A DNA stretch of 64,000 nt from Pseudacidovorax sp. GTDB lineage: Bacteria > Pseudomonadota > Gammaproteobacteria > Burkholderiales > Burkholderiaceae_C. The notes below the pieces were generated by a model, which saw nothing but the letters and a program-made list of their open reading frames with translations, searched no databases and was not told the origin of the DNA. Shown here in pieces: positions 17,150 through 31,583 of this stretch. Both the position numbers and the translations under genes were made by a program. Numbering within the stretch: the first letter of the stretch is position 1; every line of letters begins with the position of its first letter. Location of the stretch: positions 62,001 through 126,000 of the forward strand of contig NZ_JAGOPN010000011.1 in assembly GCF_017991995.1 (NCBI RefSeq), in the 5' to 3' direction.

Positions 17150-18610
17150 ATGACGCGGCTTCTCGTCGGACCGTTCAACCGCGTCGAGGGCGACCTCGAG
17201 GTCACGCTCGACATTGCCGAGGGCCGTGTGCGCGCAGCCCACGTCAATGCACCCATGTACCGGGGCTTCGAGCAGATCCTGCGCGGCAAGTCGCCACACG
17301 ATGCGCTGGTGTTCGTGCCGCGCATCTGCGGCATCTGTTCGGTCTCGCAGTCGGTCGCCGCGGCGCATGCGCTGGCCGACCTGGCCGGCGCGGCGATGCC
17401 GCCCAACGGCCGCCACGTGACCAACACGATCCTCGCCATCGAGAACCTGGCCGACCACCTGACCCACTTCTACCTGTTCTTCATGCCCGACTTCACGCGC
17501 GCCGCCTATGCCGGCCGCCCCTGGCATGCCGAGGCGGTGGAGCGCTTCACCGCCGGGCGCGGTGAGCAGGTGCGAAAGGCCATCGCGGCGCGCCAGCGCT
17601 GGTTCGAGCTGCTGGGCACGCTGGCCGGCAAATGGCCCCACACCCAGAGCCTGGAGCCGGGCGGCTCGTCGCGGGCCATCGAGCCCGCCGAGCGCACCCG
17701 GCTGCTGGCGCGGGTGCGCGAGTTCCGGAATTTCCTGGAACGCGAGCTCTTCGGCGGCACCACGCTGGAAGCCTTCGACGCGCTGCCCGACGAGGAGGCC
17801 CTGTGGACCTGGCACGCCCACCAGCCCGCGCGCGGCGACTTCCGCCTTTTCCTCAGCGCCATGCTCGATCCGGTGCTCGCTGCCCTCGGACCCGGCCCGG
17901 GGCGCTACCTGAGCTATGGCGCATATCCGCAGCCCGACGGCACTCACGGCTTCGCGGCCGGCCTGTGGGATGCGACGCTCGGCGCCCTGCAGCCGCTGGA
18001 CACGGCCGCGATCACCGAGGACGCCACGCATGCCTGGCTGCTGGACGCCGGCGGCCCTCGCCACCCGCGTTCGGGCCTGACCGAGCCCGACGCCGACAAG
18101 CCCGGTGCCTACACCTGGAACAAGGCGCCGCGCCTGGCCGGCCAGGTCGTGGAGACCGGCGCCATCGCCCGCCAGCTCGCCGCGGGCCATGCGCTGGTGC
18201 ACGATGCCGTGCGCCGCCATGGCGGCACCGTGTTCACGCGTGTGCTGGCCCGCGTGCTGGAGCTGGCCCGCGTGGTGCCTCGCATCGAGGGCTGGCTGCA
18301 GGCGCTGCAGCCCGGCGAGCCCTACTGCGTGCCCGCGGCATTGCCCGACGAGGGCGAAGGCATGGGCCTGAACGAGGCCGCACGGGGCGCACTCGGCCAC
18401 TGGCTGCAGGTGCGTGGCGGCCGGATCGCCAACTACCAGATCGTGGCGCCGACCAGCTGGAACTTCTCCCCGCGCGACGCCGCCGGCACGCCCGGCGCCC
18501 TGGAACAGGCCCTGGTCGACGCGCCGGTGCAGGACGGCGAGACCACGCCGGTGGCCATCCAGCACATCGTGCGCTCCTTCGACCCCTGCATGGTCTGCAC
18601 GGTGCACTGA
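17150..18610 (+). CDS. hoxC: Regulatory (H2-sensing) hydrogenase large subunit HoxC
   Basis: This is the catalytic-type subunit of the H2 sensor (HupV type), which binds H2 and signals to the kinase HoxJ. The 486-residue protein has the nickel ligands RICGIC (Cys60, Cys63) and DPCMVC (Cys480, Cys483). It ends at VH three residues later. It therefore has no C-terminal extension and needs no maturation protease, which separates regulatory from energy-converting hydrogenases. The stop overlaps the hoxJ start by one base (TGATG). Confidence 0.96.
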   Translation: MTRLLVGPFNRVEGDLEVTLDIAEGRVRAAHVNAPMYRGFEQILRGKSPHDALVFVPRICGICSVSQSVAAAHALADLAGAAMPPNGRHVTNTILAIENLADHLTHFYLFFMPDFTRAAYAGRPWHAEAVERFTAGRGEQVRKAIAARQRWFELLGTLAGKWPHTQSLEPGGSSRAIEPAERTRLLARVREFRNFLERELFGGTTLEAFDALPDEEALWTWHAHQPARGDFRLFLSAMLDPVLAALGPGPGRYLSYGAYPQPDGTHGFAAGLWDATLGALQPLDTAAITEDATHAWLLDAGGPRHPRSGLTEPDADKPGAYTWNKAPRLAGQVVETGAIARQLAAGHALVHDAVRRHGGTVFTRVLARVLELARVVPRIEGWLQALQPGEPYCVPAALPDEGEGMGLNEAARGALGHWLQVRGGRIANYQIVAPTSWNFSPRDAAGTPGALEQALVDAPVQDGETTPVAIQHIVRSFDPCMVCTVH

Positions 18611-27382: not shown

Positions 27383-27438
27383 CCTGAAGAAGTCTTCAGG
27401 ATTTCTTGGGACTTTCTTCAGGCAGCGCTGCGTAATCT
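27383..27438 (+). promoter_or_regulatory. Three 11-bp-spaced direct repeats plus -10 box: response-regulator promoter
   Basis: Repeats TCTTCAGG (27393-27400), TCTTGGGA (27404-27411) and TCTTCAGG (27415-27422) lie exactly 11 bp apart on one DNA face. Ten bases after the last repeat is TAATCT (27433-27438), a -10-like hexamer. This is the geometry of PhoB/OmpR-class activation, where the tandem site replaces the -35 box. A divergent copy (27383-27390) forms an 18-bp palindrome with the first repeat and may serve autoregulation of the regulator gene at 27321. The + start codon is at 27495. Confidence 0.65.
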
Positions 27439-27494
27439 GCGGCCCCAACGACGGATGGCCCGCCCGCACGAGGCAGGGGTCCGTGGAGCCGACG

Positions 27495-28334
27495 ATGACC
27501 GCATCCTTCCTGTCCGACGCTGCTGCGTCCCCCGTGCGCGGCGCCGTGCTGCTGCTGCCCGGCCTGTGCAGCACCGCCGACGAACTGCTGCACCTGCAGT
27601 CCTCGCTGCGCCGAAGCGGCTGGCATGTGAGCGCGCCCCACATCGCGGGCTATTCCTTCGATGCCGACGGCCAGCGCAGCACCGGCTTCGACCAATGGGT
27701 GGACCGGGTGTGCGCCGAGTTCGCGCAGCTCAAGCAGCAGTACGGCACCGTGCTGCTGGCCGGCATCTCGGCCGGCGCCGCGCTGGCCCTGGCCGCCGTG
27801 GCGCGGCTGGGGCAGGCCGCGGCCGGCGTGGTGCTGATGTCCACCACGCTGCGCATGGACGGCTGGAGCGTGGGCCGCAGCCGCTGGCTGCTGCCGCTGG
27901 CCCTGTACACGCCGCTGGGCCGCCTGTGGCGCTACCGCGAGCGCGCGCCCTACGGCGTCAAGAACCAGCGCGTGCGCGAATGGATCGAGCAGGAGCTCAA
28001 GGACCGCCAGATTTCCCGCGCCGGCTGTGCCGCCATCGGCGTGGCCCACCTGCGCGAATACGACCGTCTTCGTCGCGCCGTGCGCCGCAGCCTCGACCGC
28101 GTGCGCTGTCCCGTGCTGGCCCTGCATGCCCGCGAGGACGAGGTGGCCAGCCTGTCCAACATCGACCTGCTCGCCCAGGGCCTCAAGCATGCGCCGCTGC
28201 ACACGGTGGTGCTCGAGAACAGCTACCACATGATCTCGATCGACAACGACCGCCGCCAGGTGGCCGAGGAGACGATCGAGTTCGCCCGCGCCGTGGCCGA
28301 AGGCCGCGCCCCTTCCACCTCCAACCAAAGCTGA
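27495..28334 (+). CDS. Alpha/beta hydrolase (thioesterase/esterase-like) of an ACP-ketosynthase operon
   Basis: This is a 279-residue alpha/beta hydrolase. The oxyanion segment is LLLPGLCSTADE, the nucleophile elbow AGISAGAAL (Ser92), the acid in HAREDEVAS, and the His in NSYHMISID. It resembles carboxylesterase/serine aminopeptidase-type hydrolases. Beside an acyl carrier protein it could act as a thioesterase or acyltransferase; this is inference. The ATG at 27495 has GTGGAG upstream, and the long upstream extension crosses the promoter repeats and was rejected. The ACP gene follows after 3 bp. Confidence 0.85.
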   Translation: MTASFLSDAAASPVRGAVLLLPGLCSTADELLHLQSSLRRSGWHVSAPHIAGYSFDADGQRSTGFDQWVDRVCAEFAQLKQQYGTVLLAGISAGAALALAAVARLGQAAAGVVLMSTTLRMDGWSVGRSRWLLPLALYTPLGRLWRYRERAPYGVKNQRVREWIEQELKDRQISRAGCAAIGVAHLREYDRLRRAVRRSLDRVRCPVLALHAREDEVASLSNIDLLAQGLKHAPLHTVVLENSYHMISIDNDRRQVAEETIEFARAVAEGRAPSTSNQS

Positions 28335-28337
28335 TCC

Positions 28338-28619
28338 ATGCCGTCGACCACCTTCCAGACCATCGCCCGCATCGCCCAGGAAGAGCACCGCTGCGACCCG
28401 GCCCTGCTGCGCCCCGAGGTGCCGCTGGCCGACCTGGGCCTCGACTCCCTGGCACTGATGGAATTCATCTTCTCGGTCGAGGACGCGCTCAAGCTGCGGC
28501 TGCCCGAGGAGCGGCTGGACCCGCGCGAGGCCGGCATCACCCTGGGCGACCTGTGCGACGCCATCGACGCGCACATGGCACAGCAGCAGACCGGCGGCGC
28601 CACGCCGGCCCACGCATGA
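28338..28619 (+). CDS. Acyl carrier protein
   Basis: This is a 93-residue carrier protein with the phosphopantetheine site GLDSLALMEF (Ser37) at the start of helix 2. It is less acidic than the housekeeping AcpP, and the C-terminal tail (after about 80) is low-complexity, so it is probably a dedicated carrier. It lies 3 bp after the hydrolase and 34 bp before the ketosynthase. The three genes likely build or load one acyl product. Confidence 0.9.
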   Translation: MPSTTFQTIARIAQEEHRCDPALLRPEVPLADLGLDSLALMEFIFSVEDALKLRLPEERLDPREAGITLGDLCDAIDAHMAQQQTGGATPAHA

Positions 28620-28657
28620 GCACCCTCGACGCAGGCCAGGCCGAGGTGACGCTGTGA
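28616..28657 (+). other. 13-codon coupling ORF between the ACP and ketosynthase genes
   Basis: An ATG overlapping the ACP stop (ATGA) opens a 13-codon frame whose stop overlaps the GTG start of the ketosynthase (GTGA). It may act only to carry ribosomes to the downstream start. No ribosome site stands out before the GTG. The same design of a short frame with stop/start overlap at both ends is seen at 7760-7852. Confidence 0.25.
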
Positions 28658-29883
28658 GCACGCCCGTCGCCATCACCGGTCTGGGCCTGGTCAGCCCGCT
28701 GGGCACCAGCGTCCAGGCCCTGGACCGGGCGCTGGCCGCCAACCAGTGCGCCATCGCACCGCGCGAAGTCGTCATCGACGGGGTGGAGCGCTTCACCGTC
28801 GGCGTGGCGGCCTGCAGCGAGTTCGACGAGCGCAAGAGCCGCGCACCTTCGGGCGTGACGCTCGACCGCGGCACGGCGATGGCCCTCAGCGCCGCTTTCG
28901 AGGCCGCGGAGCAGTCGCGCCTGTTCGAGAGCAGCCGCCAGCCGGCGCCCGAGCGCCTGGGCGTGTTCTGGGGCACGGGCATGGGCGGCGCGAGCAGCTT
29001 CGACCAGTCCACCGAGCAGCTCTACGGCCGCAAGCGCCGCCTGCGGCCCACCACGGTGCTGACGACCATGCCCAATGCGGCCGTGGCCGAGCTTGCGCTG
29101 GCCTTCGGCGCACGCGCCTCGGCCGTGGGCTACGCCTGCGCCTGCGCCTCGTCGGCGGTGGCCATCGGCGAGGCCATGCGGGCCGTGCGCGGCGGCTGGG
29201 TGGACGTGGCCATCGCCGGCGGTCATGAGGCCCTGCTGACGCCGGGCGTGATTGCCAGCTGGCAGGCCATGCGCGTGCTGGCGCCGCTGGAGGCGCATGC
29301 CGCCCACACCTGCCGGCCCTTCTCGGCCGACCGTGCGGGCTTCGCGCTGGGCGAGGGTGCGGGCGCGGTGATCATCGAATCGGTCGCCTCGGCCGAACGC
29401 CGCGGCGTGGATGTGCAGGCGCTGCTGGCCGGCTACGGCACCAGCTGCGATGCAAGCCACATCAGCAACCCGAACAGCGAAGGCCAGGTGCGCGCGGTAC
29501 GCGCCGCGCTGGCCGACGCCGGTCTGGCCGCCAGCGACATCGGCCATGTGAATGCGCACGGCACCGGCACCGTCGCCGGCGATGCCGCCGAGGCCGCCAC
29601 GCTCGCCGAGATCTTCGGTGCGCGCGGTGTGCCGGTGAGTGCCACCAAGGCGCTGCACGGCCACATCATGGGCGGCGGCGGGGCCATCGAACTGCTGTGC
29701 GCCCTGCGCGCGATGGAACTCGGCCAGCTGCCCGCCAGCGCCACCGCGCCCGACTCCACCCTGGGCGTGGACCTCGTGCACGGCCTGGCGCCACGCGCCA
29801 ACGGCGACATCCGGCATGTGATGTCCAACGCCTTTGCGTTCGGCGGGACGAATGCGGTGCTGATTGCGAGCCGGGTGGGGTAG
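28654..29883 (+). CDS. Beta-ketoacyl-ACP synthase (FabF/KS type)
   Basis: This is a 409-residue condensing enzyme. The catalytic set is present: Cys164 (YACACASS, where FabF has ATACTSG), His302 in NAHGTGT, Lys332 (TKAL) and His337 (HGHIMGGGGA). The C-terminal FGGTN motif is intact. The Ser167 after the active Cys region and the GGGG stretch differ from housekeeping FabF, suggesting a dedicated substrate. The GTG start begins the usual PVAITGLG. No ketoreductase, dehydratase or acyltransferase gene lies alongside. The gene converges on the acyl-CoA ligase with 17 bp between the stops. Confidence 0.9.
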   Translation: MSTPVAITGLGLVSPLGTSVQALDRALAANQCAIAPREVVIDGVERFTVGVAACSEFDERKSRAPSGVTLDRGTAMALSAAFEAAEQSRLFESSRQPAPERLGVFWGTGMGGASSFDQSTEQLYGRKRRLRPTTVLTTMPNAAVAELALAFGARASAVGYACACASSAVAIGEAMRAVRGGWVDVAIAGGHEALLTPGVIASWQAMRVLAPLEAHAAHTCRPFSADRAGFALGEGAGAVIIESVASAERRGVDVQALLAGYGTSCDASHISNPNSEGQVRAVRAALADAGLAASDIGHVNAHGTGTVAGDAAEAATLAEIFGARGVPVSATKALHGHIMGGGGAIELLCALRAMELGQLPASATAPDSTLGVDLVHGLAPRANGDIRHVMSNAFAFGGTNAVLIASRVG

Positions 29884-29900: not shown

Positions 29901-31583
29901 CTACGCCTTGACATCTCCCGAATCGGCCATCCGCGCGGGGGGTTGGCTGTGAAGGGGCGGGGCGCCCTCCCGAGCCTGGGCACGGAGTACATCCTTGCGG
30001 ACTTTGCCGGAGGCCGTGGTGGGAAATTCCCCGACCAGGAAGTAGTGCTCGGGCAGCTTCTGCCGCGCGACACCCGCAGCCGCCAGCATTGCCTCGATTC
30101 CCGATGTCTCCTGCGGGGCATCGGCGCGCAGGATCAGGAAGGCGCACACGGTCTCTCCCAGCCGGGCATGGGGCATGGCAACCACTGCGGCGCCCGTCAC
30201 CGAAGGATGCTGGTGCAGCAGATCCTCCACCTCCTTGGCGCTGATCTTCTCGCCACCGCGGTTGATCAGATCCTTGATCCGACCCGTGAAGACCACCGCG
30301 TTGTCGGGCGTGAGATAGCCGACGTCGCCGGTGTGGAAGAAGCCGTCTTCATCGAAGGCTTCGCGGGTCTGCTGCGGGTCGACATAGCCGACGAAGAGCG
30401 AAGGGCCCCGCGCGCAGATCTCACCCTCACCGCCCGGCGGCAGCGGATGGCCGGCAGGGTCGAGCACCCGCACCTCGTAGTCCACCACCTCGCCGTCGGT
30501 CTCGGCCGCCAGGCGGGCCTGGTCGGGACGGCTGAATCCCAGGGTGATCATGGGCGCCTCGCTGGAGCCATAGACGCGAAAGGCGGTACACCCCGGGAGG
30601 ACGCGCGACACGCGATGGATGACTTCCGGCGCAACTGCGGCGCCGCCACAGGGAAACAGCCGTAGCGATGGCAAGCGGCGCCGCTCGCGTTCGGCCACAT
30701 CCATCAGCTCCTGCAGGAACGGCGTGGCGCCGATGGTGAAGCACACGCCCTCTTGCTCGATGATGTCCGCGGCGCGGGCCGCGTCCCACCGCTCCATCAG
30801 CACGCAGCGTGTGCCGACATAGAAGGGCATCTCGATGCCGTGGCTGAAGCCCGTGACATGGGTCAAGGGCGACGGCATGAGCGTCGTGTCGCCCGCCTTC
30901 AGGCCCCAGTGCCGGGCGCACATCAGCGTGGCGCGGATCAGCGTGTCGTGCGTGTGCAGTACCGCCTTCGGTCGCCCGGTGGTGCCGGATGTGTAGAGCA
31001 CCAGCTTGACCGCCTGGGTGGACACGGCCGGCAGCGGCGCGGGCGGCGGGGCATTGGCGACCAACTCACGCAGATCGCGACCGGAGCCGTGCGGGCCACG
31101 CACGGTCCACACATGGGCCAGGTCGGGCAGATGGGGCCGCAAGCGCTCCAGCATGGCGGCATGGTCCCAGCCGCGGAACTCGGGCGCGATGAAGATGCCC
31201 TTGGCACGGCTGTCCGCAAGGATCAGCTCGACCTCCTTGTCGCGATAGATGGTCACGATCGGGCACACGACCACGCCCAGCAGGCAGGCGGCCACATCGA
31301 TGACAGCCGCTTCGTGCCAGTTGGGGGTCTGAAAGGCCAGCACATCGCCTGGGCGGAAGCCGGACGCCTGCAGGTACGACGCCAGCGCGCGGGCCTGCGA
31401 CCACACTGCGCCGGCGGTCACCGGCGTGCCACCGCAGACCTGCGTGACCCGGTCCGGCTCGCGCTCGGCCATGTCGCGCAGCGCCGCGGCCACGGTGCGG
31501 CGAGGCCATCGGCCGTCGGCCCACCACTCTCGGGCGCGGGCCGCGTCCCACTGCAACTGCCAGCCGCTCACGTCGGTCTTCAT
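29901..31583 (-). CDS. AMP-forming acyl-CoA ligase
   Basis: This is a 560-residue adenylate-forming ligase. The P-loop-like motif is LYTSGTTGRPKAV, then YGSSEAPM (A5), DGFFHTGD (A7) and GRIKDLINRGGEKIS (A8). The catalytic Lys is in TASGKVRKD. The sequence resembles cyclohexanecarboxylate/aryl-CoA ligases more than long-chain fatty acid ligases, but the substrate is not readable. It is the last gene of the - strand operon that starts at 39468. It follows the Liv importer by 25 bp, so it probably activates the imported acid. Confidence 0.9.
   Translation of the reverse strand: MKTDVSGWQLQWDAARAREWWADGRWPRRTVAAALRDMAEREPDRVTQVCGGTPVTAGAVWSQARALASYLQASGFRPGDVLAFQTPNWHEAAVIDVAACLLGVVVCPIVTIYRDKEVELILADSRAKGIFIAPEFRGWDHAAMLERLRPHLPDLAHVWTVRGPHGSGRDLRELVANAPPPAPLPAVSTQAVKLVLYTSGTTGRPKAVLHTHDTLIRATLMCARHWGLKAGDTTLMPSPLTHVTGFSHGIEMPFYVGTRCVLMERWDAARAADIIEQEGVCFTIGATPFLQELMDVAERERRRLPSLRLFPCGGAAVAPEVIHRVSRVLPGCTAFRVYGSSEAPMITLGFSRPDQARLAAETDGEVVDYEVRVLDPAGHPLPPGGEGEICARGPSLFVGYVDPQQTREAFDEDGFFHTGDVGYLTPDNAVVFTGRIKDLINRGGEKISAKEVEDLLHQHPSVTGAAVVAMPHARLGETVCAFLILRADAPQETSGIEAMLAAAGVARQKLPEHYFLVGEFPTTASGKVRKDVLRAQAREGAPPLHSQPPARMADSGDVKA

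Follow-up and report, generated by a model that had tools for sequence, protein, structure and literature searches.

Dedicated pairs of an acyl carrier protein (ACP) and a ketosynthase (KS) are known from the NodF/NodE system of rhizobia, in which they serve special fatty acyl groups, and in Sinorhizobium meliloti the nodFEG operon also includes the reductase gene nodG (PMC4618531). Here we describe an operon of an alpha/beta hydrolase, an ACP and a KS gene, hereafter the triad, in a 64,000-nucleotide stretch of Pseudacidovorax sp. (contig NZ_JAGOPN010000011.1, positions 62,001 to 126,000), the whole of which is called the window. The likeness to NodF/NodE is one of description, not of sequence, and the triad operon differs from that system in having no NodG-type reductase and in being under apparent two-component control. 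The NodF/NodE system uses the acyltransferase NodA, in place of which the hydrolase stands in the triad. By analogy, we consider it an evenly balanced proposition that the triad is a NodFE-like, inducible module for acyl elongation, combined with an acyl transferase or thioesterase. This reading rests on the conservation of the gene set and of a single operator, the placement of the KS in a clade apart from FabF, the intact catalytic residues, and the alternation of serine and cysteine as the nucleophile of the hydrolase.

Aryl polyene and xanthomonadin type II polyketide synthase (PKS) clusters likewise carry an ACP-KS pair, and the KS of one aryl-polyene-like cluster (L069; L numbers denote the loci that we collected) falls in the same large clade as that of the window. 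Unlike these clusters, the window operon contains no ketoreductase, dehydratase, acyltransferase or MMPL exporter gene, as judged from the gene list and, for the neighbours, by eye; of the ligase, dehydratase, ketoreductase and exporter that mark an aryl polyene cluster, the same list yielded a lone AMP-ligase-like gene, convergent with the operon. The accessory ACPs of Ralstonia solanacearum were also considered and set aside, since they belong to xanthomonadin- or aryl-polyene-like clusters and the accessible part of their description makes no mention of a hydrolase (PMC9542644). As for the hydrolase, the polyhydroxyalkanoate (PHA) synthase PhaC uses the alpha/beta-hydrolase fold for acyl transfer, with a cysteine in its lipase box (PMC6403647), whereas the window enzyme is a single-domain protein of 279 residues with a fold nearest to monoacylglycerol lipase and a serine nucleophile.

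Recurrence of the gene set

The sequence-only reading, made from the letters of the window, had described a three-gene hydrolase-ACP-KS operon divergent from an OmpR-type regulator and a kinase, and the genes, their order and their direction were as it stated (Table 1). Within the operon, the gaps measure 3 bp between hydrolase and ACP and 34 bp between ACP and KS, and the called gene after the KS is convergent, so the operon ends there. The hydrolase start was set at the ATG at 27495, the gene caller's own choice being the GTG at 27483.

Table 1. Features of the locus, with positions in the window
Feature	Positions	Strand	Remarks
Sensor histidine kinase, 470 aa	25235..26647	-	HAMP, HisKA and HATPase_c domains
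OmpR/PhoB-type response regulator, 225 aa	26644..27321	-	4-bp overlap with the kinase start
Putative operator block, 40 bp	27383..27422	+	Inverted CCTGAAGA and direct half-sites at 27393, 27404 and 27415
Putative -10 element TAATCT	27433..27438	+	Probable assignment; TAA..T retained across the aligned genus sequences
Alpha/beta hydrolase, monoacylglycerol-lipase fold, 279 aa	27495..28334	+	Ser92 in GISAG, Asp215, His245; possible acyl transferase or thioesterase
Dedicated ACP, 93 aa	28338..28619	+	Phosphopantetheine site Ser37
FabF-like KS, FAFGG clade, 409 aa, GTG start	28654..29883	+	Phe at the position of FabF Ile108

Rather than a one-off, the arrangement turned out to be a recurrent cassette. 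The hydrolase was searched in 399 genomes of the family and 399 of the order, 85 and 80 of which matched at E 1e-25, and the best 30 hydrolase loci per search gave 58 distinct loci, of which five belong to the window's genus. Hydrolase, ACP and KS genes stood together and co-directional in 54 of these 58, in the order hydrolase-ACP-KS in 53 and ACP-KS-hydrolase in one (L146), and the other four (L154, L161, L162 and L178) had no ACP-KS match. The operon was present in 12 of the 15 genus genomes, and triads were also found on contigs of a Methylophilaceae bacterium, Methylotenera, two Nitrosomonadales bacteria and Rugamonas; on an uncultured Burkholderiales contig (L053) the hydrolase and KS were called and no ACP. 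Gene calls in relatives came from simple callers, which missed the KS of L195 and the ACP of L196.

Further out, the triad was rare among the loci fetched. Thirty hydrolase loci from 398 phylum genomes included all three genes in four cases, three already known from the order and the fourth (G1158) from another family of the class; among 30 KS loci from 369 class genomes, a hydrolase match was found in two, the window's own and G1158, many of the others being likely FabF. In the plasmid collection, three records matched the KS at E 1e-40, and the two inspected had PAP2 and KSIII neighbours and no triad; 35 plasmid records matched a triad hydrolase at less than 60% identity, a count made on the hydrolase alone. 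No description of the gene set was found by title or abstract opening among the matches listed in the open-access literature, a search that left subscription papers mostly outside.

The operator and the regulators

As the sequence-only reading had reported, the divergent gap contains three repeats at exact 11-bp steps, TCTTCAGG at 27393, TCTTGGGA at 27404 and TCTTCAGG at 27415, with TAATCT starting at 27433, 10 bp past the last repeat. Absent from that reading was an inverted copy, CCTGAAGA, at 27383-27390, which is palindromic with the first direct copy. The middle repeat agrees with the outer ones in only five of eight letters, and TAATCT is a weak -10 element. The three-copy pattern gave one match in the window at no mismatches and none in 100 shuffles; the outer two copies alone were unremarkable, matching in 24 of 100 shuffles at up to three mismatches, and the operator was therefore judged by conservation. 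In the genus alignment the 40-bp block was nearly unchanged while its surroundings diverged: 37 of its 40 positions were invariant across 11 distinct genus sequences, compared with 22 of the remaining 133 intergenic positions in the same sequences (Fisher p 7e-19, a purely descriptive value given the relatedness of the rows). Failure of the repeats to persist in relatives had been named beforehand as evidence that would count against the sequence-only reading, and within the genus they persisted. At up to three mismatches, the operator had one site in the window's own genome, one in each of the 12 genus genomes with the operon and none in the three without it, with no further site in any genus genome and so no sign of a wider regulon. 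By this conservation, the predicted operator is real, and its tandem half-sites at steps of about 11 bp upstream of a -10 element place it among putative OmpR/PhoB-type operators. The PmrA box of Klebsiella is similarly built, with head-to-tail 6-bp half-sites CTTAAT/CCTAAG lying 5 bp apart in 11-bp steps (PMC3973317), whereas the half-sites of the window are CTTCAG/CTTGGG, in three direct copies and one inverted, and its regulator falls below the PmrA cut-off (NF007928, 187.8 bits against 330).

Tandem boxes of this spacing recurred elsewhere. The 12 divergent gaps between a regulator and a triad or pump contained 58 near-repeats (five of six letters agreeing) at spacing 11, present in 11 of the gaps, as against 10.8 +/- 5.3, with a maximum of 31, in 500 single-base shuffles; spacing 22 came second (35 near-repeats) and spacing 7 third (32). 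Three of these gaps are from the window's genus and several others are related, leaving fewer independent cases. By eye, the half-sites read CTTCAG in the genus, GGTCAG in L044, L191, L192, L208 and L210, and TTTCAG/TTTAAG in L040 and L207.

As to the check that had been proposed for relatives, namely synteny of all five genes together with the repeats, the triad recurred, often accompanied by a divergent regulator and a tandem box of 11-bp spacing. A single orthologous pair in all triads is unsupported, since the genus kinases differ by eye from other triad kinases in the sensor and HAMP stretch, and the window regulator shares 37-44% identity with the regulators of other triads and up to 48% with paralogues in its own genome. 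Given this difference between the kinases, lineages seem to have swapped the pair while keeping the arrangement. Against solved structures, the kinase sensor part gave a best E of 0.03, which was uninformative.

The enzymes and related ACP-KS loci

The KS scored 304.2 bits against the FabF equivalog TIGR03150 (cut-off 493.75) and stood outside the branch of FabF-labelled rows (SH-aLRT 97) in a tree built from 81 KS rows that include one identical pair, the FabF label being assigned from position in the search lists. The ACP scored 21.9 bits against the housekeeping family TIGR00517 (cut-off 70.45) and 37.2 bits against PF00550 (gathering score 20.8). These cut-offs and the KS tree ruled out a housekeeping FabF or fatty acid synthase ACP, and the other outcome named beforehand as counting against the sequence-only reading, a KS from a known housekeeping pathway, thus did not arise. 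The full catalytic set and the carrier serine read from the window also stood: Cys164, His302, Lys332 and His337 were invariant in 31 aligned KSs, as in condensing enzymes, and Ser37, in GLDSL, was invariant in 30 of 30 aligned ACPs.

Most members of the KS clade have FAFGG and TK..HGH; among triad KSs, those of L204-L206 have FGFGG and those of L053, L194 and L196 lack HGH, and the KS of L034, in the FabF branch, also has HGH. The clade further includes KSs beside PAP2-like proteins and one in an aryl-polyene-like cluster. A single clade of triad KSs was rejected, with at least five changes on starred branches of the tree, in which L202, a triad locus, had been labelled apart. The window's own clade comprises 15 KSs, and 14 of them (not that of L194) carry an additional cysteine, Cys162, two residues ahead of the catalytic Cys164; no other aligned KS row has a cysteine there.

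Because the I108F substitution hampers the fit of the acyl chain in the pocket of Bacillus FabF (PMC3996569), the window KS, which has a phenylalanine at the Ile108 position, may by analogy favour short or unusual chains. A phenylalanine gate went with a Ser-type hydrolase in 11 loci and a leucine or isoleucine gate with a Cys-type one in 14, while five other rows broke the pattern or had another residue and four were unreadable; most of the Phe/Ser rows form one clade, so this pairing is no independent evidence.

The structural model of the hydrolase had a pLDDT of 91.4 and a pTM of 0.90, and the best 50 of its 1936 fold matches were all monoglyceride lipases (monoacylglycerol lipases) or LipS. 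Asp215 and His245 were invariant in 31 aligned rows, whereas the nucleophile was serine in 14, including the window's lineage, and cysteine in 17. A wider set of 74 rows, in which some loci are repeated and four hydrolases (three Ser, one Cys) have no ACP-KS, had serine in 38 and cysteine in 36. Since both forms serve the same gene set, we infer that thioester chemistry on acyl-ACP is favoured over ordinary ester hydrolysis, and the enzyme may be an acyl transferase or a thioesterase. The earlier label of hydrolase may not hold for the reaction. PhaG and RhlA likewise use the alpha/beta-hydrolase fold for acyl transfer. A plain esterase is weakened by the Ser/Cys alternation, the Ser-type enzyme of the window being still compatible with one.

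Loci with a PAP2-like protein, an ACP and a KS resemble the triad in their ACP and KS families and differ from it in the PAP2-like protein that takes the place of the hydrolase (its Pfam assignment is based on a related gene of L069 only). One is a paralogous set on contig 24 of the window's own genome (L039:8473-10633), the KS of which is 48% identical to that of the window. Others occur in genus members without the triad (L047 and L048; in G004 just the ACP and KS were seen) and in Variovorax (L066, L077 and L130). Another uncharacterized ACP-KS operon is preceded by genes for an LpxD-like hexapeptide protein and an L,D-transpeptidase-like protein (L088:4969-9203, where alone the families were tested), and more than 20 alphaproteobacterial loci have similar gene sizes. 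A further cluster type with the same KS family has a KSIII-like protein, a methyltransferase, an FAD enzyme, an ACP and a related KS in a row (L061:4610-9248 and, on a Caballeronia plasmid, L213:4517-9224), the KSIII-like protein being annotated in L213 and recognized by eye in L061.

Proposed function and alternatives

In the elongation module that we propose, the first step is strongly indicated: the divergent kinase-regulator pair would sense envelope or metal stress, and the phosphorylated regulator would bind the tandem 11-bp half-sites upstream of the -10 element and activate the operon. The dedicated ACP would be phosphopantetheinylated at Ser37 and, with the dedicated KS, would run one or a few condensations with malonyl units, the reductases and dehydratase being borrowed from the housekeeping fatty acid synthase, as is thought for NodF/NodE. 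The Ser/Cys alpha/beta-hydrolase would then unload the ACP, either releasing the acyl group by hydrolysis or handing it to an acceptor, and the pathway would yield a specialized acyl group or a small lipid, in all likelihood destined for the cell envelope. Our best guess at the signal is metal or envelope stress because of the pump and ATPase/CueR neighbours of relatives and the sub-threshold heavy-metal matches described below. Tentatively, the triads could also be seen as an 'acyl-switch' family, widespread and undescribed in Burkholderiales, with one dedicated promoter switched by a stress-sensing two-component pair, a private ACP and a Ser/Cys hydrolase acting as an acyl-ACP transferase onto an envelope lipid, linked to metal efflux. 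If the proposed module is correct, a conserved, regulated and minimal acyl-making unit would join the short list of dedicated ACP-KS pairs. One regulator, one operator and three enzymes would make it a self-contained test bed, and the natural Ser/Cys series within one enzyme family could tell what the nucleophile decides, hydrolysis or transfer.

We examined 34 neighbourhoods, the window and 33 fetched loci, including L203, which has the hydrolase without ACP-KS. A kinase match was found somewhere in 16, and in 13, of which three belong to the window's genus, a regulator-kinase pair was divergent from the triad or from an operon of pump and triad. RND pumps were matched in seven and not found in 27. 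The order outer membrane factor-membrane fusion protein-RND-hydrolase-ACP-KS was present in L044, L208 and L210, and the same order without the outer membrane factor in L058; in L202 the pump genes lie downstream of the triad, and in L209 they are convergent on the opposite strand. All three pumps tested (L044, L058 and L209) passed the CusA/CzcA cut-off, those of L202, L208 and L210 were judged by similarity only (43, 81 and 82% to the L044 pump), and L059 has a pump of a different type. In six loci of one family (L044, L191, L192, L193, L208 and L210), the triad has genes for a heavy-metal P-type ATPase and a CueR-like protein as neighbours; the four ATPases tested passed the heavy-metal, copper and cadmium subfamily cut-offs and fell below the CopA equivalog cut-off, and both CueR-like regulators tested passed the CueR cut-off. 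In Burkholderia RND operons with an LlpE-type lipase, a lipase-like hydrolase gene likewise stands inside the pump operon, a likeness by description only; we know of no ACP or KS in those operons. In one locus (L199:3352-11720), two regulator-kinase pairs flank a co-directional triad, which is followed by an Nramp-type transporter.

These neighbours, in the triad operon of four loci or near it in two for the pumps and beside six triads for the ATPase and CueR-like genes, could also mean that the cassette is a metal-response envelope module that changes the acyl chains of the membrane or of lipopolysaccharide and thereby restricts metal influx or assists the RND pump. Consistent with this, the best NCBIfam matches of the window regulator and kinase were heavy-metal families, both below cut-off (TIGR01387, 209.3 bits against 279.2, and TIGR01386, 252.9 against 292.55, respectively). 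We nevertheless regard such a module as unlikely, since all the ATPase/CueR cases may go back to one ancestral location in one family, the four ATPases tested pass the cadmium cut-off as well and fall short of CopA, the pumps of L208 and L210 had already been noticed when these loci were fetched, and most neighbourhoods had no RND match.

Several of these observations, together with others, also weigh against the inducible elongation module. Its regulator and kinase do not reach the cut-offs of the heavy-metal families, the KSs labelled as triad do not form a single clade in the tree, an in-frame stop was reported in two of the 58 hydrolases (L169 and L188), and its reliance on the housekeeping synthase is argued by analogy. 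In the loci read from the window's genus, the operon had no visible metal gene as a neighbour, and the genes listed for L041, L200, L201, L204, L205 and L206 include no two-component pair and no pump. Many genomes of the order have pumps of the CusA/CzcA type (at least one in 106 of 150 at E 1e-200, with up to four scored per genome), and part of their association with the triad may be chance. Given this base rate and our estimate of about one or two per cent per locus for chance adjacency within some 8 kb, the pump link is suggestive, not proven. Taken as a whole, the interpretation offered by the sequence-only reading is partly supported.

A different product would follow if the KS made a 3-ketoacyl-ACP from which the hydrolase freed the 3-keto acid, with loss of CO2 giving a volatile 2-alkanone signal. 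This route would need no reductase, so that three genes would be enough and the lack of ketoreductase and dehydratase in the operon would be explained. Enzymes of the MKS2 type cleave 3-ketoacyl-ACPs to give 3-keto acids, and S. meliloti uses 2-tridecanone as an infochemical, but the releasing enzymes named in these reports, a single-hotdog MKS2 and a YbgC-like thioesterase, have another fold. The cysteine nucleophiles of many hydrolase rows point to transfer, and the replacement of the hydrolase by a PAP2-like protein in related ACP-KS loci suits a lipid product better. In favour of the route, the tomato partner MKS1 has an alpha/beta-hydrolase fold; on balance we think a methyl ketone signal rather improbable. 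It is very improbable that the ACP-KS pair is a leftover of a type II PKS or aryl polyene cluster, functionless or serving clusters elsewhere in the genome. In favour of a leftover, the KS of the L069 cluster (AMP-ligase, FabA-like protein, lipid A-type acyltransferase and MMPL) shares its large clade, and L067, L073, L082, L087, L094 and L110 resemble L069 by gene sizes only; against it, the gene order across many families, the invariant catalytic residues and the operator are all kept, which speaks against decay.

Beside the operon in the window, the AMP-ligase-like gene (29901-31583, recognized by its motif by eye) is convergent with the KS and is followed by branched-chain amino acid ABC transporter-like genes; neither was seen beside the triad in the genus loci L049-L051, and transporter-like genes of this type occurred in three of the 34 neighbourhoods. 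Farther away, the gene at 17150-18610 has an N-terminus that by eye resembles that of a NiFe-hydrogenase large subunit.

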